From Blautia argi (lineage in GTDB: Bacteria > Bacillota > Clostridia > Lachnospirales > Lachnospiraceae): 64,000 nucleotides of DNA. Positions 2,376 to 31,992 of the stretch are shown one piece after another. The notes beneath the pieces were generated by a model. That model searched no databases. It was not told where the DNA came from and worked only from the letters and a program-made list of their open reading frames with translations. Position 1 is the stretch's first letter. Each line of letters starts with the position of its first letter. Where the stretch lies: positions 1,247,501 to 1,311,500 of the forward strand of contig NZ_CP030280.1 in assembly GCF_003287895.1 (NCBI RefSeq), given 5' to 3'. The position numbers were made by a program, and so were the translations under genes.

Positions 2376-3569
2376 ATGCTCAATAAAAAATCAGTAGATG
2401 ATATTAATGTAAACGGAAAAAAAGTACTGGTTCGCTGTGATTTTAACGTACCATTACAGGAAGGTAAGATTACAGACGAAAACCGTCTGGTTGCAGCGCT
2501 TCCTACTATCAAAAAATTAATTGCTGACGGCGGAAAAGTAATTCTCTGTTCTCACCTTGGCAAGCCAAAGGGAGAAGCAAAACCGGAATTATCTCTTGCA
2601 CCTGTTGCGGTACGTCTGTCTGAATTATTAGGACAGGAAGTAAAATTTGCAGCAGATCCGGAAGTTGTAGGACCAAATGCAAAAGCAGCAGTAGAAGCTA
2701 TGAAGGACGGCGAAGTTATTTTACTGGAAAATACACGTTACAGAGCCGAAGAAACAAAGAACGGCGAAGCGTTCTCCAAAGAACTGGCTTCTCTTTGTGA
2801 TGTATTCGTAAACGATGCATTCGGTACCGCACACCGTGCACACTGCTCTAACGTAGGTGTTACACAGTTCGTAGACACAGCAGTTGTAGGATACTTAATG
2901 CAGAAAGAAATCGACTTCCTGGGAAATGCAGTAAACAACCCGGAAAGACCATTTGTTGCTATCCTTGGCGGAGCAAAGGTATCCAGCAAAATTTCCGTTA
3001 TCAATAACCTCCTTGACAAAGTAGATACTTTAATCATCGGCGGTGGAATGGCTTATACCTTCTCTAAAGCAGCAGGCGGAAATATCGGTATTTCCTTATG
3101 CGAAGATGATTATCTGGAATATGCATTGGAAATGAAAAAGAAAGCAGCAGAAAAAGGCGTAAAACTTCTTCTTCCTGTAGACCACAGAATCGGTGACGCA
3201 TTCTCCAATGACTGCAATATCCAGATTGTAAAGAGCGGTGAAATTCCGGAAGGCTGGGAAGGTATGGACATCGGACCTGAAACAGAGAAAATCTTCAGCG
3301 AAGCTGTAAAAGATGCAAAAACAGTTGTATGGAACGGACCAATGGGCTGCTTCGAAATGCCTAACTTTGCACATGGTACAGCAGCCGTTGCAAAAGCACT
3401 GGCTGATACAGATGCTACTACCATTATTGGCGGTGGTGATTCTGCAGCGGCAGTTAATATTCTGGGATATGGTGACAAAATGACTCACATTTCCACAGGC
3501 GGCGGCGCTTCCTTAGAATTCCTGGAAGGCAAAGAACTCCCAGGTGTTGCAGCAGCAAACGATAAGTAG
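2376..3569 (+). CDS. pgk: Phosphoglycerate kinase
   Basis: This 397-residue monomeric kinase transfers phosphate from 1,3-bisphosphoglycerate to ADP, the first ATP-yielding step of lower glycolysis. Visible signatures are RCDFNVPL near the N-terminus (substrate-binding arginine), ENTRYR, the hinge region [17 protein letters not shown] and the nucleotide-binding loop GGGDSAAAV near the C-terminus. The length matches bacterial Pgk. The ATG at 2376 follows AAAGGAGG by 8 nt. It lies downstream of gap, and is separated from tpiA by 172 bases that carry a duplicated 34-nt element. Confidence 0.97.
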
Positions 3570-3573
3570 GCCG

Positions 3574-3715
3574 AAAGCAACTTAGCGAAAGCGAGCCAAC
3601 GGCGAAGCTTGAGGTTAGTGCGAGGCCCTTCTCGAACCTTAGCGAGCATGTGTGCGAGCTTAGTTGAGAGAAGATACCCGTAAAGCAACTTAGCGAAAGC
3701 GAGCCAACGGCGAAG
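3574..3715. repeat. Pair of 34-nt direct repeats between pgk and tpiA
   Basis: An identical 34-nt unit beginning AAAGCAACTTAGCG and ending CCAACGGCGAAG occurs at 3574-3607 and 3682-3715. The spacer contains further AGCGA/GCGAG words and short self-complementary segments, for example CTTCTC at 3629-3634 against GAGAAG at 3668-3673. The element starts 5 nt after the pgk stop and ends 26 nt before the tpiA start, leaving both ribosome sites intact. It is GC-richer than its surroundings and resembles a dispersed intergenic repeat. Whether it recurs elsewhere in the genome cannot be seen here. Confidence 0.85.
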
Positions 3716-3741
3716 AAAATTGTAGAAAGAAGGATAAATCC

Positions 3742-4488
3742 ATGGCAAGAAGAAAAATTATTGCTGGTAACTGGAAGATGAACATGACTCCAAGTGAAGC
3801 AGTTGAATTAGTAAACACATTAAAGCCACTGGTGGCAAATGAAAATGTAGATGTAGTATTCTGTGTTCCTGCAATTGATATTGTACCTGTTGTAGAAGCT
3901 GTAAAAGGCAGCAACATTCAGGTTGGTGCAGAAAACATGTATTTTGAAGAAAAGGGCGCTTACACAGGCGAAATTTCTCCAAATATGTTAGTTGATGCCG
4001 GAGTAAAATATGTTATCTTAGGACATTCTGAAAGAAGAGAATATTTCGGAGAAACAAACGAAGATATCAACAAAAAAATGCACAAGGCATTTGAACACGG
4101 CTTAACTCCAATTATGTGCTGTGGCGAAACTCTGGAACAGAGAGAACAGGGCGTGACAATGGACTTTATCCGTCAGCAGGTAAAGGTTGGTTTCCAGGGA
4201 ATTACTGCAGAGCAGGCAAAAGAAGCAGTTATTGCTTACGAGCCAATCTGGGCTATCGGAACCGGCAAAACAGCTACTACTGAACAGGCTCAGGAAGTAT
4301 GCAAAGCGATTCGTGAATGTATTGCAGAAGTTTACGATGAAGCAACTGCAGAAGCAATCCGTATTCAGTACGGCGGTTCTGTAAATGCAAAGACAGCTCC
4401 GGACTTATTTGTTCAGCCGGATATTGACGGCGGACTGGTTGGCGGCGCTGCCCTGAAACCGGATTTCGGTTCTATTGTAAATTACTAA
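3742..4488 (+). CDS. tpiA: Triosephosphate isomerase
   Basis: This 248-residue TIM-barrel enzyme interconverts dihydroxyacetone phosphate and glyceraldehyde 3-phosphate. The three catalytic residues sit at canonical places: Lys12 in GNWKMN, His95 in ILGHSERR and Glu167 in [11 protein letters not shown]. The C-terminal phosphate-binding loops IQYGGSV and GGLVGGAAL are intact. The ATG at 3742 follows AGAAAGAAGG. It is third in gap-pgk-tpiA and is followed by a hairpin and T tract; the next gene downstream belongs to an AT-rich accessory block. Confidence 0.97.
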
Positions 4489-10732: not shown

Positions 10733-10761
10733 TTGCAAAATGAAAGAAAAGCTGATATAAT
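10733..10761 (+). promoter_or_regulatory. Sigma-A promoter of the amino-acid ABC transporter operon
   Basis: TTGCAA at 10733-10738, 17-nt spacer, TATAAT at 10756-10761. Transcription would begin near 10768, about 65 nt before the binding-protein start. Confidence 0.75.
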
Positions 10762-10832
10762 GCATAACAGTTGAATAAATATACATTATATACAGAATAA
10801 ATGAATAATGTATGAATAAAGGAGAGCGGATT

Positions 10833-11624
10833 ATGAAAAAGAAAATTTTAGTAATGGCACTTATGGCATCTGTTTTGGCAGCAGCAGGCTGTGGAGAGAA
10901 AAAAGCAGCAGAACCGGTAGAAATTTCTTCCAAAGAGGATTTAGCAGATTTAAAAATCGGTGTGCAGATTGGAACTACAGGGGACAGTCAGGCAAGTGAA
11001 GCGGTAAAAGAGGATAAGCAGGTAAACCGTTTTAACAAAGGTGCTGATGCCATTCAGGCATTAAAAAACGGTAAGATTGACTGCGTTGTCATTGATTCCC
11101 TTCCTGCTGAAAAGTTTGTAGAAGCAAACGATGACTTGAAAATCGTGGACGGTATTTTTGATAAGGAAGAGTATGCGATTTGTCTGAAAAAAGGAAATAC
11201 AGAATTAAAGGAAGAAATGAATCAGGCGCTTAAAGAGTTAAAAGAGGACGGAACCTTAGACCAGATTCAGAGCAATTACATTGGAGATGAAATTGGCAAG
11301 CACCCCTACGAATCTCCGGAAGATGCAGACCACTCTAAAGGAACTCTGACTATGGCAACCAATGCGGAGTTTGAACCATGGGAATATAAGGAAGGCGACG
11401 AAGTGGTTGGAATTGATGCCGATATTGCAAAGGCAGTTTGCGACAAAATGGGATATGAATTGAAAATCGAGGATATGGCTTTTGAGATGATTCTGGCTAC
11501 GGTAGATACCGGAAAGGCAGATTTCGGAGCAGCAGGCATGACAGTAAACGCAGAGCGTGAAAAGAGTGTAGATTTTACAGATACATACGCAGAAGCAACT
11601 CAGGTCGTGATTGTTAAGAAATAA
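10833..11624 (+). CDS. Amino-acid ABC transporter substrate-binding lipoprotein, circularly permuted
   Basis: A 263-residue lipoprotein (lipobox ending AAAGC, Cys20) of the SBP_bac_3 family, feeding the permease and ATPase that follow. The order of the family's segments is reversed. Residues about 35-155 carry what is normally the second half (DLADLKIGVQIGTTGD, ADAIQALKNGKIDCVVID, YAICLKKGN, LKEDGTLDQI). Residues about 175-263 carry the normal first half (GTLTMATNAEFEPWEYKEGD, VVGIDADIAKAV, KADFGAAGMTV, VDFTDTYAEATQVVIVKK). A linker with IGKHPYESPEDADHSKG joins the ancestral C- and N-termini. The break falls at the hinge between the lobes, so the fold could be kept. The ATG at 10833 follows AAAGGAG; an upstream in-frame ATG at 10812 lacks a ribosome site. 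Polar amino acids are the likely ligands. Confidence 0.92.
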   Translation: MKKKILVMALMASVLAAAGCGEKKAAEPVEISSKEDLADLKIGVQIGTTGDSQASEAVKEDKQVNRFNKGADAIQALKNGKIDCVVIDSLPAEKFVEANDDLKIVDGIFDKEEYAICLKKGNTELKEEMNQALKELKEDGTLDQIQSNYIGDEIGKHPYESPEDADHSKGTLTMATNAEFEPWEYKEGDEVVGIDADIAKAVCDKMGYELKIEDMAFEMILATVDTGKADFGAAGMTVNAEREKSVDFTDTYAEATQVVIVKK

Positions 11625-11638
11625 TAAGGAGAGAAAAA

Positions 11639-12331
11639 ATGTTGGAAAATTTACAGGCATGGTTTGAACGGTATTTCGTGGATAACGGCGCAACCTCCTG
11701 GTGGCTGGAGGGCTTGAAGACAACGGTACTGGTTACGCTTCTGGCTCTCTGCATTGGTGTGGTGTTGGGATTTCTTGTTGCAATTATCCGTACAACCCAT
11801 GAACAGACCGGAAAACTGAAAGTATTAAACCTGATTGCAAAGGTTTACCTGACAGTGATTCGCGGTACACCGTCCATGATTCAGATTTTGATTTTTTACT
11901 CCGTGGTTTTTGCCAGTGTGAACCTGAATAATATTATTATCGGCGGGATTGCCTTTGGTATTAATTCCGGCGCATATGTGGCAGAAATTGTCCGTTCCGG
12001 TATTATGTCCATTGATAAGGGGCAGACAGAGGCCGGAAGAAGTCTGGGACTTTCCGCAGTACAGACACTGTGGCTGATTATTATGCCCCAGGCATTTAAA
12101 AATGTGCTGCCTGCTTTAATTAATGAATTGATTGTATTATTAAAAGAAACAGCGATTATCGGTTATATCGGTACAACAGATATTACAAAAGCAGCAACGC
12201 TGGTACAGAGCCGTACCTACAGTGCCTTTGTGCCTCTGATTTCAGCGGCAGTTTTCTATCTGGTGCTGGTTATGCTGCTGACCCACTTTATGGGTAAGCT
12301 GGAAAGGAGGCTGCGTAAGAGTGAACACTAA
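11639..12331 (+). CDS. Polar amino-acid ABC transporter permease (HisM/GlnP type)
   Basis: A 230-residue membrane protein with about five hydrophobic segments. The EAA loop [20 protein letters not shown], which contacts the ATPase, is typical of the HEQRO amino-acid permeases. Only one permease gene is present, so the channel is probably a homodimer. The start at 11639 follows AAGGAGAG by 8 nt and lies 14 nt after the binding-protein gene. Its end overlaps the ATPase gene by 11 nt, suggesting coupled translation. Confidence 0.92.
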
Positions 12332-13064
12332 AGGAGAGGTTTTGATTCAGGTACAGAATCTTCAGAAATCCTTTGACGGACATGTGGTTTTGGACGGGAT
12401 TTCCACAGAAATTCACAAAGGAGAAGTTGTTGCTGTTATCGGTCCTTCTGGTTCCGGTAAATCTACATTTCTGCGTTCTCTGAATTTGATGGAAGAACCC
12501 ACAGACGGAAAAATTTTGTTTGAAAATGTAGATATTACAGATCCCAAGATAGACATTAACCGTCACCGACAGAAAATTGGTATGGTATTTCAGCAGTTTA
12601 ACCTGTTTCCACACAAGACTGTAAAGGAAAACATTATGCTGGCGCCGGTGACCTTAAAGCTGATGAGCCGGGAAGAGGCGTCCCAAAAGGCTGACGAGCT
12701 TTTGGAGAGAGTGGGACTGCCGGATAAAGCAAATGCATATCCGGGTCGTCTTTCCGGTGGACAGAAGCAGCGTATTGCTATTGCAAGGGCTCTGGCAATG
12801 AATCCGGACGTGATGCTGTTTGACGAGCCCACCTCAGCTCTTGACCCGGAGATGGTAGGAGAAGTTCTGGAGATTATGAAGGAACTGGCACATACAGGCA
12901 TGACTATGGTGGTTGTTACCCATGAAATGGGATTTGCAAGAGAGGTGGCCAATAGAGTTCTGTTTGTGGACGGCGGAAATATACAGGAAGACGCGGAACC
13001 CCAGGAGTTTTTCAGTAATCCGAAAAACCCGCGTTTAAAGGAATTTTTATCAAAAGTGTTGTAA
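12321..13064 (+). CDS. Polar amino-acid ABC transporter ATP-binding protein (GlnQ type)
   Basis: A 247-residue ATPase with Walker [11 protein letters not shown]-loop FQQFNLFPH, signature LSGGQKQR, Walker [13 protein letters not shown] and the H-loop histidine in VTHEMGF. It powers the transporter encoded by the two preceding genes. The start is uncertain: GTG at 12321 lies 10 nt after AGGAGG inside the permease gene, while an in-frame TTG at 12342 has AAAGGAG 5 nt upstream and would remove seven residues. A strong hairpin ends the operon at 13072-13118. Confidence 0.93.
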
Positions 13065-15031: not shown

Positions 15032-18000
15032 ATGAGTAAAAACCGAAAACAAAAAGTGCGCCTATGGGGAGCAGTATTTGCCGTATTTTTATGTATGTGT
15101 GGTCTTATACAGGCAGCAGAACTTGGAAAGGTAACCATGGAGAGAGGAAGGTGGGTGGAATATCCTCGTTTTTGGGGCGCTCACGGAACTTATTTTTACA
15201 CAGCGCATACGAACCAGGGGGATTATACTGCCTATTGTCTGGAACCTGATAAAAATTTTGTGCCGCCGGGAGAGTATGAGCCTGAATTGCAGCCGGATAA
15301 CGATGGTCTGCGGGCAGCGCTTTACTATGGTTATGGAGGTCCGGGACAGGGGGAGTACATTGATAATTCTGCCTATGAAAATCTGGGAGAATGTCCTTTA
15401 GAGGACGCAAAGTATGTACGGACGCATTTGGCTGTTTCTTATTTTTTTGATAAGGAAAATGCTTTTCACAATATGGACGAAGGAGATGTGCAAAATTCCG
15501 GTGTATGGGAATTTATTGAATGGCTGCAGGGGAGAGAAATTCCAACGGTTTCCTCCCGGTTTTCAAAAGATGTTCTGACCGCGTATTACGAAAAAGGAGC
15601 AGATTATCAGAGAACGGAAAGTATACAATATCTTTCTGAAAATCAGGAAAACAGAATTTCCTTTACCTGTCCGGAAGGTGTGATATTGCATAACGAAACA
15701 ACAGGAGAGGAAAAGGCAGGAATTGTCAGTGTAAGGGCAGGAGAGAGCTTTTATTTTTCCGCACCTCTTGATATCAGTGTAAAGGCAGGAGAAATCTGGA
15801 AATCCGGAAAATTACAGGGGGAAAAAGACGGAAGATGGGAAGCCGTGGTGTTGCCGTCCAAAGGAGATGCTCAGACATCAGGATATGGCTGCTTTAGTGC
15901 TGAAAATACAGAGCCTGTAGAATTCCAGGTACAGTGGACAACCCTGGGAGATTTAGAAATACAGAAAACCGATGCAGAAACCCAGGAGGCGGCGCCTCAG
16001 GGGAATGGAAGTTTAAAAGGCGCTGTTTACAGTGTCTTCTGCGACGGACAGGAAGCGGGAACCATAGAAACAGATGAAAAGGGATACGGAAGATTAGAGA
16101 AGGTAAAGGCGGGAACATACACCATAAAAGAAACAAAAGCGCCGGCAGGTTATGAATTGGATACAGAAACCTATACTGTAACTGTGCCGGGGAAAGACGG
16201 AAGCACCTCTGTGAAAATTCTTTCTAAAGAGCAGCCCATAAAGGTGCGGATAAAGCTGCAGAAAATTGATGATGAAACAGGAAAGCCCCTGCCTCAGGGG
16301 AACGGGGTGTTAAAAGGCGCAGAATATACGGTTTATGCAGCCGAAAACATTGGCAGCATGAAAAAGGACAGCGCTGTGGGAATAATTGTAACAGATGAGC
16401 AGGGAAAGGGAACTCTGGAAAATCTTCTTCCAGGAAAATATTATATTAAGGAAACAAAGGCATCTGAGAAATATTTTTTAGATGATACCAGATATGAAGT
16501 GAGTTTTCCTCTAGACGGAGAGAAAAAAGAAGAACTGATCACCAGCAGAGAAAAACCGGTAAGGGGTCTGGTTGAGCTGCAGAAGCAGGACGCAGAAACA
16601 GGGGAAAAGAAACCACAGGTGACTGGTGCGGTTTTTAAAGGTGCTGTTTACGGTGTTTATGCACAGGAAGATATCGGAAATATGAAAAAAGGCGAAAAGG
16701 TTACAGAAATTGTAACAGACAGCAAAGGATACGGAAAAGCGGAAAATCTTTTCTGCGGCGCTTATCTGGTAAAAGAATTGTCTGCCCCGGAGGGGTATCT
16801 GACAGATGAAAAAGAATATAAGGTAGTAATCCCTGAGGCAGAGGAGGGCAGTACACAGCTGAAAATCCTCATTAACAGTAAGGAAAAGCCCATTCGGGGT
16901 GATGTGTCTATTACAAAGTTTTTAAAAGAAGAACAGGAGGACAGTAGTTTTAAAAAACCGGGAGAGGGAATTTCCTTTACATTTACGGAAAAGGGGAATG
17001 AAAAGAATCAGGTGACAATTACAACAGATAAAAACGGATATGCTTCTACAAAGGATAAAAAATATACGGAGGGAAGACTGCTTTATGGGACGTATGAGGT
17101 AAAAGAGTCCAATGTTCCGGAAGGCTACACGCCGGTGGCGCCTTTTGAGATTACGATTAAGGAAAAGCATCAAACCTTGTATTATATTCTGGAAAATGAT
17201 GCGATTCTGTGTCCGGTAAAAGTTGTAAAAACAGCGGCAGATACAGGAAAGGTCATTGCAAAGCAAGGAGCCAGATTTAAAATTCAGAAAAAAACAGAAA
17301 AGGGCTGGGAAGACCAGGAATTTTTGGTTTCCATGTATCCGCAGGAAACCAGACAGACAATTTTTGAAACAGATGAAAGCGGCAGTTTCCATTTGCCTCA
17401 GAAGCTGAAAGCAGGACAGTACCGGGTAGTCGAGGTAGAGCCGCCAAAGGGTTATGCGTTGAATCCGGTTCCTGTGGAATTTACTATAAAAAACGGTATG
17501 GATCAGGGGAAAAATCTGGAGATACTGTTTGCAGATAAGCCTCAGCAGGGAAAAATCCGCCTTGTAAAAAGGGACGGGGATACAGGAGAAGTTCTGGGGG
17601 CAGGTTTTGTATTTTCTGTGATAGCCGGGGAGGATATTTATACAGGAGATAAAACATTGCGCATGAAAAAAGGGGAAGAAGCCGCGCGGATTACCACAGG
17701 AGAGGACGGAACAGCAGAAACGGGACTTTTATATCCGGGGAAATATCTGGTGAAGGAAGAACAGGCTGGGGAGTATTATGCAGAAAGTCGGAAGATATAT
17801 GAGGCAAAAGTAGAGGCAGAGAGCAAGGAAGAGATTTTTCTGACAGAACTTGAGGCAGACAATAAAAAGACCAGAGTAGAAATAGTCAAGACAGAGGCAG
17901 GAGAAAAGGAAAAATTTTTAAAAGGCACAGAGTTTACCTTGTACAGAGAAGAACAGTTGACAAAGGAACAGATTACAGGAAGCCAAGAGTTGCCACAGGA

Positions 18001-19285
18001 AGGGGAACAGGTTTTAATTACAGATGAGAAGGGATTGTGTGATGCTGTGAATTTAAAGCACAATACCGTTTATTATCTGGCAGAAACAAAGGCGCCGGAG
18101 GGATATGCAAGAAGTAAAGAATTGTACAAGTTTGCAGTGGACGAAAAAGGATATATAGAAGGACAGGATACTTTCAGAGTGGAATTGGAAAATTATCCTA
18201 TTACTTTAGAGATATCCAAAAAAGGACAGAAGGAAAACACAGAACTGCAGGGTGCAGAATTGGTTCTTACAGAAGAAGACGGTACGAAAAAAGAATCCTG
18301 GACAACAAAAGAAAAGCCTCATGTCATAAAATATTTAAAGCCGGGCAACTATATATTAAGGGAAGAAAAAGCGCCGAAGGGATATAAAACGGCAGCAGAG
18401 ATGCGGCTGGAAATAAAAGATACTCCTGAGATTCAGAAAGAAGAAATGAAAGATGAATATTTAAAGGGAAATCTGCAGATTACCAAAAAAGACAAAGAAA
18501 ATAAGGAAACATTAGGCGCAGGATTTGTGTTTGTCCTGACAGCGGCAGAGGATATTTGTACACCGGAGGGAAAAACCGTATGGAAAAAGGGGGATTTCGT
18601 GCAGGAATTTTCTACAGATGAATCAGGAATTGCCTGTGCAAGAGATTTATTTCCAGGAAAATATCAGGTTTATGAAAAGATATCCGGGGAATATTATGCA
18701 GTAGAACAGGAAAAATACGATGCTGTTATACAAATAACCAAAGAAAATACAGGGAAAGACTGTGCGCTTACAATTTATAATGAAAAGACAAAGCTGATGC
18801 TGGAAAAGACGGATTCTGTGAAAAAAGCGCCCATGGAACAGGTGGAATTTGCCTTTGCGGAGGCAGATAGAACCCAAAAAGAAATGAGCAGGGAAGAGGT
18901 ACTGGAAAAAGGAATCCGAAGGACAACAGACAAGGAAGGAAAGATTTGTTTGTCAAAATTAAAGCATGGGAAAGCTTATTTTCTGACAGAGGTAAAAACA
19001 AGAGAAGGCTATATACTGGATAAAACCGTATATCGGGCAGAAGTAGATGAACAGGGACTTATTAACAAAGAAAAAAGAAAAGTTCTGAAGCTGGAGAATA
19101 AGCCTGCAGTGGCAAAGGAACAGCCAAAGACAGAGAAACCAAAACCGGAAAAAACGAAAACTGTAAAAACCGAAGACGAAAGCAGAAGTGTGCTGTTTTT
19201 GCTTTTGGGTGCAGGAGGCGCAGGTGTATTTCTGGCGGCAGCCAAGGGCAGAAAAAAGAAGGACAGTAGTAACAGAAAGCATTAA
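15032..19285 (+). CDS. Large surface protein: thioester-domain-like head and about ten SpaA/Cna-B repeats
   Basis: A 1417-residue exported protein. A basic signal peptide (about 1-29) precedes an N-terminal region like bacterial thioester adhesin heads: AYCLEP (Cys69) and [12 protein letters not shown] (His132 where such heads usually have Gln in TQxA). From about residue 310 to 1350 come ten SpaA/Cna-B-like modules, each with a [13 protein letters not shown] motif; several are degenerate ([16 protein letters not shown]). The modules begin with lysines such as [10 protein letters not shown] that could form isopeptide bonds with the motif glutamate. The C-terminus has a KPKPEKTK spacer, a hydrophobic segment ([18 protein letters not shown]) and basic residues, but no LPxTG. 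Likely a stalk-like adhesin or pilin-like protein. The start has a GGAAAGGGG site. eno follows after only 19 nt. Confidence 0.85.
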
Positions 19286-25586: not shown

Positions 25587-27275
25587 ATGAAGATGAAGAA
25601 AGTATTGGCACTGGCGCTTGCCGGAGCAATGGTTCTGTCTTTAGGCGCGTGTGGAGGTTCCGGTAATGCAGACACTGCAAAAGGTACTTCTGATGACGGC
25701 ACTAAAACAGAAGCAACAGGAACAAGTTATCCGGGAACTCCTGATGACAACATGGTAACTGTAGACTTGAGAGCGGAACCGCCTGAATTAAACTCTATGA
25801 AGACAACAGACGTTGCTTCAGGAGATATTCTTCGTGAGGTGATTTCAGGTCTTTACAAGCTGGATGAAAACGATGTTCCACAGCCGGATCTGGCAGAGGA
25901 TACACAGGTAAGCGAAGATGGACGTACTTATACTTTAAAACTTCGTCAGGATGCAAAGTGGTCTAACGGAGAACCTGTAACAGCAAAAGACTTCGTATAT
26001 TCCTATCAGATGATCTGTAACCCTGAAACAGCATCTACTTATGCATTTATTGTATATGATAACCTGGTAAATGGTAAAGAAGTATATGATGGAACAAAAG
26101 ATCCGTCTGAATTGGGTGTAAAGGCAATTGATGATTATACTCTGGAAGTTACCTTCATCAACCCGATTCCATATGCAAAACACTTATTCTCTTTTGCATC
26201 TTACTATCCGGTAAACCAGAAAGCATACGAAGAAATCGGTGCTGACAGCTATGCAAAAGACGCAGATAAGATTGTAGTAAACGGTCCTTACACAATTTCC
26301 GAATGGGTACATGATGATCACATCACACTGGAAAAGAATCCGGACTACTACAATGCAGATGATATTAAGATTGAAAAAATCAAATATGTCATGATGAAAG
26401 ATACAAACGCTCGTATGAACGCATTCAAAGGCGGCGAAGTTGACTGTATCGAATTAGACGGAGATCAGGTCAAACAGTTAGAAGCAGAAGGCGTAAAAAC
26501 AAGCTCTTATGTGGATAATGGAAACTGGTACTTCCAGTACAACACAAAGACAAAAGGTCTTGACAACGCAAAAATCCGCCGTGCTTTAGGTATGGCAATT
26601 GACCTGAACAGCTTATGTGAAAACGTTCGTAAAGATGGTTCTGTTCCGGCAACTGGCGTTGTTCCGACAGGAATCAGCGGTGCAAACGATGCAAAATATC
26701 GTGATGCAGCGGGCGAATTGGTAGAGTACAACGTAGAAGAAGCAAAGAAGCTTTTCGACGAAGGATTAAAAGAATCTGGATTAAAAGCAAGCGATGTAAA
26801 ATGGACTCTGCTTATGGACGATACAACAGCGGCTCAGAAAGAAGCAGCGTTCTATCAGGAACAGTGGAAACAGGCTTTAGGTATCCAGGTAGAAATTACA
26901 CCAATGCCATTTAAAGCTCGTCTGCAGGCAATGCAGGACGGAAACTTTGACATTGTATTTGCAGGCTGGTCACCAGACTACAACGATGCAATGACCTATC
27001 TTGACTTATTTACTTCCACAAATGGAAACAACTACGGTAAATATGAAAGTGCAGAATACGACAAACTGATTGCAGATGCTATGAAAGAAGTAGACCCTGC
27101 AAAACGTCAGGACTTACTGATTCAGGCAGAAACACTTCTGGTTAAAACAGATGCACCGGTATTCCCGCTGTACTTCAGTGCAAAGGCATATGTTGCGTCT
27201 GGAAAACTTCAGGGCATGACTCGTACTGGTTTCCAGGAATTCGACTTCACAGACGGAGCTGAAATCGTAAAATAA
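25587..27275 (+). CDS. oppA: Oligopeptide ABC transporter substrate-binding lipoprotein OppA
   Basis: A 562-residue SBP_bac_5 protein. The signal peptide ends in the lipobox LSLGAC (Cys22), so it is anchored to the outer face of the membrane. Family signatures include TYTLKLRQDAKWSNGEPVTA, VNGPYTISEW and NPDYYNADDI. It captures peptides for the OppBCDF importer. The ATG at 25587 follows a GAGAGGAAGGAA site. Codon use is biased towards abundant tRNAs, as expected of a highly expressed binding protein. A hairpin after the gene should give more OppA than permease. Confidence 0.93.
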   Translation: MKMKKVLALALAGAMVLSLGACGGSGNADTAKGTSDDGTKTEATGTSYPGTPDDNMVTVDLRAEPPELNSMKTTDVASGDILREVISGLYKLDENDVPQPDLAEDTQVSEDGRTYTLKLRQDAKWSNGEPVTAKDFVYSYQMICNPETASTYAFIVYDNLVNGKEVYDGTKDPSELGVKAIDDYTLEVTFINPIPYAKHLFSFASYYPVNQKAYEEIGADSYAKDADKIVVNGPYTISEWVHDDHITLEKNPDYYNADDIKIEKIKYVMMKDTNARMNAFKGGEVDCIELDGDQVKQLEAEGVKTSSYVDNGNWYFQYNTKTKGLDNAKIRRALGMAIDLNSLCENVRKDGSVPATGVVPTGISGANDAKYRDAAGELVEYNVEEAKKLFDEGLKESGLKASDVKWTLLMDDTTAAQKEAAFYQEQWKQALGIQVEITPMPFKARLQAMQDGNFDIVFAGWSPDYNDAMTYLDLFTSTNGNNYGKYESAEYDKLIADAMKEVDPAKRQDLLIQAETLLVKTDAPVFPLYFSAKAYVASGKLQGMTRTGFQEFDFTDGAEIVK

Positions 27276-31640: not shown

Positions 31641-31987
31641 GGGCTTGTACTGGTTTCGACGGGGGTTTTGAAGTTGAGGAAGCCATCTGCAGACTCCGGG
31701 ACTGCATACCAACCTGGAAACTAAATATAAACGCAAACGATAACGTAGCGTTAGCTGCCTAATTGCAGCTTGTCAGCCTCAGGTCACCCGCTGCCTGAGA
31801 ATCTGGCATCGACCTTGCGGGGCACTTCGTTTTCAAAGCTTTGAGAAAATGGAAGATTTTATGAAGCTACTAAGTACAGAAGCCTGTTATTCGGCGTCTG
31901 TGTAAGGGAATGTCAAAAGAATAACTGTGATGGGAGATGCCGCAAGGGATAGACTTTCGGACAGGGGTTCGATTCCCCTCAGGTCCA
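31641..31987 (+). ncRNA. ssrA: Transfer-messenger RNA (tmRNA)
   Basis: The 5' end GGGCTTGTACTGGTTTCGAC and the 3' end with the T-arm GGTTCGATTCC and CAGGTCC are diagnostic. The 7-bp acceptor stem pairs 31641-31647 with 31980-31986; A31987 is the discriminator and the CCA end is not encoded. The tag frame at 31733-31762 encodes ANDNVALAA followed by TAA, so with the charged alanine the degradation tag ends in the usual ALAA. It rescues ribosomes stalled on broken mRNA together with SmpB. It has its own promoter and terminator. Confidence 0.97.
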
Positions 31988-31992
31988 TAGAG

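Follow-up and report, generated by a model that had tools for sequence, protein, structure and literature searches.

An operon for an amino-acid importer in Blautia argi raises the question of whether a whole substrate-binding domain can be circularly permuted in a transporter that still works. We analyzed a stretch of 64,000 nucleotides from this organism (the window; contig NZ_CP030280.1, positions 1,247,501 to 1,311,500), in which the first gene of the operon had been read, in a preliminary description made from the sequence alone, as a lipoprotein whose second half precedes its first.

Order of the halves in the window protein

The window gene encodes an SBP_bac_3 lipoprotein of 263 amino acids, with an ATG at 10833 and a stop codon at 11622-11624. 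Both were read from the sequence and agree with the coordinates given earlier, 10833-11624; a further in-frame ATG upstream, at 10812, is the start in the program-made ORF list. The signal peptide ends in LAAAGC, which we take to be the lipobox, with Cys20 (10890-10892) as the expected lipid site. Behind it follow the second half of the family domain (B, residues 29-150), a linker, and the first half (A, residues 169-263). The permease gene starts 14 bases after the stop codon and is itself overlapped by the ATPase gene. The features are as follows.

10733..10761, + strand: promoter-like TTGCAA-17-TATAAT with TG before the -10 element (consensus scan)
10833..11624, + strand: circularly permuted SBP_bac_3 lipoprotein of type I, order B-linker-A, 263 amino acids (profile and structure-chain alignments, doubling test)
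10833..10892, + strand: signal peptide with presumed lipobox LAAAGC (read from sequence)
10917..11159, + strand: B1, lobe 2 minus its first strand, residues 29-109, about GlnBP 99-180 (alignment)
11094..11096, + strand: Asp88, equivalent of GlnBP Asp157, lobe 2 ligand contact (alignment)
11160..11174, + strand: second hinge strand, residues 110-114, GlnBP 181-185 (alignment)
11175..11282, + strand: B2, ancestral C-terminal part of lobe 1, residues 115-150 (alignment)
11283..11336, + strand: linker from ancestral C-terminus to ancestral N-terminus, residues 151-168 (doubling test, linker comparison)
11337..11585, + strand: A, ancestral N-terminal part of lobe 1, residues 169-251 (Pfam, alignment)
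11556..11558, + strand: Arg242, equivalent of GlnBP Arg75, which contacts the ligand alpha group (alignment)
11586..11600, + strand: first hinge strand, residues 252-256, GlnBP 85-89 (alignment)
11601..11624, + strand: last strand QVVIVKK and stop, lobe 2, GlnBP 90 to about 97, the new C-terminus (sequence, alignment)
11639..12331, + strand: permease, BPD_transp_1 / HEQRo_perm_3TM (Pfam, NCBIfam)
12321..13064, + strand: ATPase, GlnQ/TcyN-like polar amino-acid ABC subunit (Pfam, NCBIfam)

The promoter had been called good. The consensus scan found 8 such elements where 6.3 are expected in shuffles, which is no better than chance for the region; the TTGCAA-17-TATAAT element with its TG at 10733-10761 is a reasonable candidate promoter.

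We compared the window protein to family profiles and to solved structures. It belongs to SBP_bac_3 by homology, with a PF00497 match of 121.9 bits (curated cut-off 26.4, E 1.9e-35). This match comes in two stretches, the best of which aligns protein residues 172-263 with profile positions 1-92, and thus the start of the family with the end of the protein. Several NCBIfam models likewise match in two stretches (the best one of TIGR01096 places residues 32-150 on profile positions 124-250), and all four solved chains whose alignments were inspected are reversed relative to the window protein. In the AncQR structure 4zv1, for example, residues 31-151 correspond to chain residues 109-232 and residues 166-263 to chain residues 6-104. 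Alignment of the halves to the SBP_bac_3 profile, the check proposed in the preliminary description, thus returned two matches in reversed order, and the single collinear Pfam or NCBIfam match named there as contrary evidence was not obtained.

We also wrote each protein twice in succession and scored the doubled sequence, as its best single domain, with a profile of 13 unpermuted relatives (L022-L034). The window protein rises from 153.3 bits in its native form to 315.2 bits when doubled (model positions 3-219 of 221), and none of 42 unpermuted ORFs, the 13 seeds included, shows a gain (-3.0 to -1.4 bits), so that the signal far exceeds what chance would give. The median gain is 142.0 bits for 125 ORFs with the same cut as the window gene (type I), 43.7 bits for 59 ORFs of a second layout described below (type II), and -2.3 bits for the 42 unpermuted ORFs. 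These numbers include repeats of one gene; at 99.9% identity there are 119 distinct type I, 55 type II and 43 unpermuted sequences, with three L085 repeats added to the last. Pfam, NCBIfam, the solved chains and the doubling test together confirm the order second half, linker, first half. The window protein is therefore a permuted derivative of SBP_bac_3 and not a canonical member, whose form is one collinear match with A ahead of B, and its sequence supports a natural, whole-domain circular permutation.

Lobes were assigned by alignment to E. coli GlnH (locus L244) together with published domain limits for GlnBP, given in the part of the source used here as 5-84 and 186-224 for the large domain, 90-180 for the small domain, and 85-89 and 181-185 for the hinge (PMC7400645). 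In the alignment to GlnH, the new C-terminus falls at about GlnBP 97 and the new domain start at about GlnBP 98-101. By the published limits, the termini of the window protein lie in lobe 2, one short strand past the hinge. They had been described as being at the hinge; they are indeed near it, but not at it, since they map to about GlnBP 96-101, 7-12 residues beyond the hinge strand 85-89 and inside lobe 2. The related proposal that the lipid tether has moved to lobe 2 agrees with this alignment and is probably correct. Between the old termini, both in lobe 1, 105 of the 125 type I ORFs have 13-15 bridging residues outside the family ends.

In the Blautia argi genome (G000) there is one PF00497 match over the cut-off besides the window gene (L003, G000:C1:2666909-2667322). 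It is collinear (profile 1-131), so that one of the two recognised SBP_bac_3 proteins of this genome is permuted. A weak PF00497 match near window position 26860 (L005) was set aside, as it lies inside a 571-residue frame that reads by eye like an oligopeptide-binding protein. Elsewhere in the window, positions 15032-19285 hold a 1417-residue ORF with repeated segments, which to us resemble Cna-B/SpaA-like surface protein repeats.

Permuted relatives, cut points and fused arrays

We searched related genomes for the same order, as had been suggested. Among 30 named loci, 16 are permuted (15 complete; L020 is cut by a contig end) and 14 unpermuted (13 complete; L035 is frameshifted). The permuted ones come from Blautia, Fusicatenibacter, Oliverpabstia and others, the unpermuted ones from Lacrimispora, Clostridium, Hungatella and others, and the closest named loci, at 93%, are those of 'Candidatus Blautia stercoravium' and Blautia hansenii. 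In the family of the window, 397 genomes were counted from searches with the window protein and with a type II protein, taking the best few candidates per genome and leaving out G167 (cut by a contig end) and G209 (broken frame). At least 85 of these genomes carry type I and at least 41 type II, which together amount to at least 125 genomes, or about a third of those sampled. Both types occur together in a single genome, where about nine would be expected if they were independent (Fisher p 0.0005, a value that ignores kinship). A class-wide search of 391 genomes, 379 of them new, adds at least 24 type I and at least 14 type II genomes among the matches retrieved, and a phylum-wide search of 299 genomes, 289 of them new, adds at least 8 type I genomes, with no type II among the matches listed. 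In a plasmid search, 500 records match, all below 60% identity, and each of the 8 matches listed is in two pieces. The case had been judged unusual. The permutation is real, but it is not singular: the window gene belongs to a widespread permuted group, in a family permuted more than once and at four cut points.

Two further loci of the type I group are worth recording. One has two neighbouring type I genes ahead of a single permease and ATPase (L116:2024-2821 and 2969-3784), and in another a B-A-permease gene is split into two frames (L095:1592-3185).

In type II the protein begins immediately ahead of the second hinge strand and continues with B2 (the C-terminal helices of lobe 1), a linker, A and B1; its cut is at model positions 163-172, about GlnBP 164-175. 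Type III, found in three loci of family f152 (L248, L254, L256), is cut at about model position 128, about GlnBP 129. In five loci of family f97 (L268-L272) the C-terminus extends to include ..GPEDLK, or some variant of this motif, and the next strand is where the domain begins, with a cut near GlnBP 108 as read in three of the five sequences (L268, L270, L271). All four cut points (GlnBP about 96-101, 108, 129 and 164-175) thus lie in lobe 2, so that the anchored N-terminus shifts from lobe 1 to lobe 2. A lobe-1 cut in an intact ORF was not seen by eye among the matches listed from the family, class and phylum searches; one apparent case, G167, ends at a contig end (L100). L278, an ORF called type III by rule, was excluded from the counts; on reading, it is a type I-permease fusion that has diverged, with a match that continues further. 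If cuts fell evenly, four of four would lie in lobe 2 with a probability of about 0.03 ((91/220)^4); the search is biased in that it began from a permuted protein, lobe-1 cuts may thus be under-sampled, and we regard the clustering as a hint only.

An unpermuted relative or a tandem duplicate had been named as something to look for, and both were found. In genus g389, three genomes share a locus with matching permease, ATPase and two divergent upstream genes. The binding protein is unpermuted in L282 and of type II in L283 and L284. Compared with the corresponding pieces of L283 and L284, L282 is 78-80% identical over A-B1 and 58-61% identical over B2. L153 and L240 represent the genes of L283 and L282, respectively. 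In the type II L153 the linker ends in TTVEEGKLIMATN, and in the unpermuted L240 the N-terminal tether reads MTVEEGKLVVATN. The linker thus matches the tether, as expected if it is the old N-terminus of a second copy.

Tandem domains fused to a permease occur in the normal register, as AB-AB-AB-permease in L085 and AB-AB-permease in L277, and in a shifted register, as B-AB-A-permease in L219, L220, L222 and L262 and B-AB-AB-A-permease in L224. The first of these is a protein of 973 amino acids with three tandem unpermuted SBP_bac_3 domains and a permease (L085:2413-5331, G195:C2). The 1000-residue L224 protein (L224:606-3605) is ambiguous in register and can be read as permuted units or as normal inner domains with a split outer one. 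As these arrays demonstrate, in-frame duplication takes place, and both registers are tolerated. Proteins of about 394 amino acids with three halves (such as P0004-P0014) were considered as frozen intermediates and rejected, as on reading they are likely metagenome assembly chimeras joined at the conserved word ATNAEF.

A misassembly of adjacent normal genes, or a B-A slice of a tandem A-B-A-B gene, might be suspected from the L085 and L277 arrays, from these chimeras, and from the collinear run of the type I profile through 6h30, a 460-residue glutamine ABC permease/binding-protein chain, but the window gene has one copy of each half between lipobox and stop with the permease directly behind it, and its arrangement recurs in 15 complete named loci (L006-L019, L021), in more than 100 further genomes, in at least 85 of the 397 genomes of the family, and in one-contig genomes such as G000 and G271, which makes this reading untenable, so that we consider it already refuted and give it next to no credence.

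Ligand site, operon partners and constraint

We investigated whether the window protein has kept the features of a binding protein. GlnBP Ala67, Gly68, Thr70, Arg75 and Asp157 are retained as A234, G235, T237, R242 and D88, and thus the four contact residues used to judge membership (the equivalents of Gly68, Thr70, Arg75 and Asp157) are all present. Four contact positions are changed, Asp10 to N177, Lys115 to Q45, Gly119 to T49 and His156 to I87, and the Asn, Gln and Thr at the first three are also found in nearly all unpermuted relatives. Among the distinct sequences, all 55 of type II, all 43 unpermuted ones and 118 of 119 of type I have Arg and Asp at the equivalents of Arg75 and Asp157, respectively. 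Aligned with 64 of the 100 listed ORFs, the window protein shares 11 invariant columns with them. Against L006 and L007, the mature part has a dN of 0.037-0.038 and a dS of 1.6-1.9, giving dN/dS values of 0.023 and 0.020. The resulting value of about 0.02 points to strong purifying selection but is rough because synonymous sites are near saturation, and it is limited to these two relatives, as dS is saturated against L021, L011 and L015.

The adjoining permease scores 67.9 bits with HEQRo_perm_3TM (cut-off 42.2), and the ATPase 323.1 bits with TcyN and 321.8 bits with GlnQ, below their equivalog cut-offs (406 and 379) and thus too low for a substrate to be assigned. A 3TM-type permease and a GlnQ-like ATPase adjoin the gene on its downstream side, as in a GlnHPQ-like ABC importer. 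A permease, either fused or at most 700 bp downstream, accompanies 133 of 140 type I ORFs; the figures are 60 of 62 for type II and 58 of 61 for unpermuted ORFs, counting repeats of one gene. The earlier view of the gene as the first of a working-looking three-gene importer is thus in keeping with the permease and ATPase that follow, the kept ligand positions and the low dN/dS. These three lines of evidence make it most likely that the window protein functions as a normal subunit of an amino-acid importer.

That the protein is permuted yet non-functional, or re-purposed, for instance as a sensor without transport, appears improbable to us. Its ligand cannot be named from sequence, which is consistent with such a role, but its ligand positions are as in unpermuted relatives, its dN/dS is low, nearly all type I genes have a permease beside them, and in 35 genomes type I and permease are covalently fused in one ORF. 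No riboswitch that could name the ligand was found in the window, where the only Rfam match above the gathering score is a tmRNA gene (31641-31990, RF00023, 151 bits).

For a working importer subunit, we envisage that the chain would fold into the usual two lobes, with the linker bridging the old termini on lobe 1, the lipid anchor leaving lobe 2 beside the hinge, and the last strand completing lobe 2. By analogy with GlnBP-like members of the family, the lobes would close on an amino acid and the protein would dock on the adjacent permease in its homodimeric form. ATP-driven uptake would then proceed as in an ordinary polar-amino-acid importer, from which only topology and tether would differ.

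Origins and known systems

We next consider how often the permutation arose. A careful tree holds 77 rotated sequences out of 229, after twelve loci with long or poorly covered rows were dropped and the rest thinned; types III and f97 were left out of all trees. It requires 7 changes among unpermuted, type I and type II forms, and none of 200 bootstrap trees, from a bootstrap that had not settled, recovers type I or type II as one clade. A quick tree of 149 rows also gives 7 changes, with its starred branches alone forcing at most one change for type I. A single type II clade is rejected (p 0.000858, for the 10 type II rows of the thinned 77-row tree), and rejection of all type I as one clade is borderline (p 0.042). 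The data do not reject one clade for the main and second type I groups combined (p 0.39), which were grouped only once the tree had been seen, and the two have linker wording in common, such as YESPAD; type II linkers are of three unlike kinds. We read this as one or two origins for type I, two or three for type II, one for type III and probably one for the f97 form, the number of events being soft. Reversion, gene conversion or recombination between paralogues could also produce the mixed tree with fewer gains. Ranked by their similarity to A and to B of the window protein, the 45 unpermuted rows come in different orders (Spearman 0.17; mean identity 0.64 for A and 0.52 for B) and the type I rows in similar ones (Spearman 0.80 over 124), and the window gene could conceivably have begun as a fusion of halves from two paralogues.

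Duplication and trimming is the route suggested by the presence of fused arrays in both registers: a tandem in-frame duplication would give A-B-A-B, from which the outer pieces would then be lost. As none of the arrays is placed on the line to the window gene, we infer this route rather than observe it. The permuted C-terminus in turn offers lobe 2 as a point of attachment for the permease. The gap between the end of the SBP model and the permease match is 5-16 residues in 30 of 37 type I fusion ORFs, against 46 in L085 and 26 in L277, where part of the larger gap arises because the permease match starts about 20 residues in.

We put at about an even chance that these rearrangements reflect neutral drift by way of tandem duplication, with the loops of lobe 2 merely tolerating cuts and the position of the tether being irrelevant. 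Arrays in both registers indicate that this route is open. The placing of four different cuts within the 91 of about 220 positions that make up lobe 2, the persistence of permuted genes with low dN/dS, and the type I-permease fusions speak against drift but do not exclude it. We propose tentatively that, in the phylum of the window, selection may instead have favoured SBP_bac_3 lipoproteins with termini in lobe 2 rather than lobe 1, which would also shift the lipid anchor and the site of permease fusion. Duplication followed by trimming, wherever a lobe-2 loop permits, would have brought this about repeatedly. If so, with at least four topologies and covalent fusions of permuted binding proteins to permeases, circular permutation would be an adaptation that working transporters have reached time and again. 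The window gene very probably encodes a genuine, working, circularly permuted polar-amino-acid-binding lipoprotein, from a family permuted more than once and with the new termini in lobe 2 in every case found.

We compared the window protein to known systems. It shares its blocks, the corresponding ligand positions and the same kind of operon partners with canonical SBP_bac_3, or cluster F, proteins (E. coli GlnH, AncQR 4zv1, 6svf), and its nearest unpermuted relative, L165, is 61% identical in rotated register. It differs from them in that its halves are rotated, its termini and lipid anchor are placed in lobe 2, and its ancestral termini are joined by a linker. Such cases can hide under ordinary protein names: among 120 listed relatives, the two for which a source name is given are called 'transporter substrate-binding domain-containing protein' (P0024, P0069). 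Among the best 60 of 75 solved chains matched by the type I profile, 6h30 alone has a best stretch that covers both halves (residues 98-326, collinear); this chain presumably contains two normal tandem binding domains. In such GlnPQ-type proteins (6h30 and others), SBP_bac_3 domains are part of a binding-protein/permease polypeptide, and each fused domain is unpermuted, whereas the permuted group has single B-A units, B-A-permease fusions and shifted-register arrays.

No report of a natural permuted amino-acid-binding protein was found among the matches listed from the open-access literature, where the sole natural permutation of a whole binding protein that we found belongs to a sugar-binding family. 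The family described here is a textbook amino-acid family, permuted at several cut points, with an unpermuted/permuted pair in one genus and duplicated arrays as possible intermediates. It thereby becomes testable by what route whole-domain permutations appear and become widespread, and whether transport depends on where a binding protein is tethered to the membrane.

Permuted pieces of a periplasmic binding protein are also known from the halves of a Thermotoga ribose-binding protein, used, according to the part of the source consulted, for a study of fold evolution (PMC9815098). The nearest precedent, from the part of the report available to us, is TpMglB-2 (Tp0684) of Treponema pallidum, a permuted glucose-binding ABC lipoprotein proposed as 'cluster Bc', for which a crystal structure, ligand binding and a conformational change establish the behaviour of a binding protein (PMC4990184). 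There, the permutation adds a fourth crossover and the permuted part is poorly similar (13%), and its authors raised a need for anchoring as a possible origin of the topology (PMC4990184). No sugar-binding cluster B family is found among the Pfam and NCBIfam matches of the window protein at E <= 0.001. The two proteins, as far as that part of the report describes TpMglB-2, are alike only in being natural circular permutations of a tethered binding protein. TpMglB-2 belongs to the sugar-binding cluster B, whereas the window protein is of an amino-acid family with both parts clearly homologous, and here there are four cut points, recurrence, and a before/after pair within a genus.
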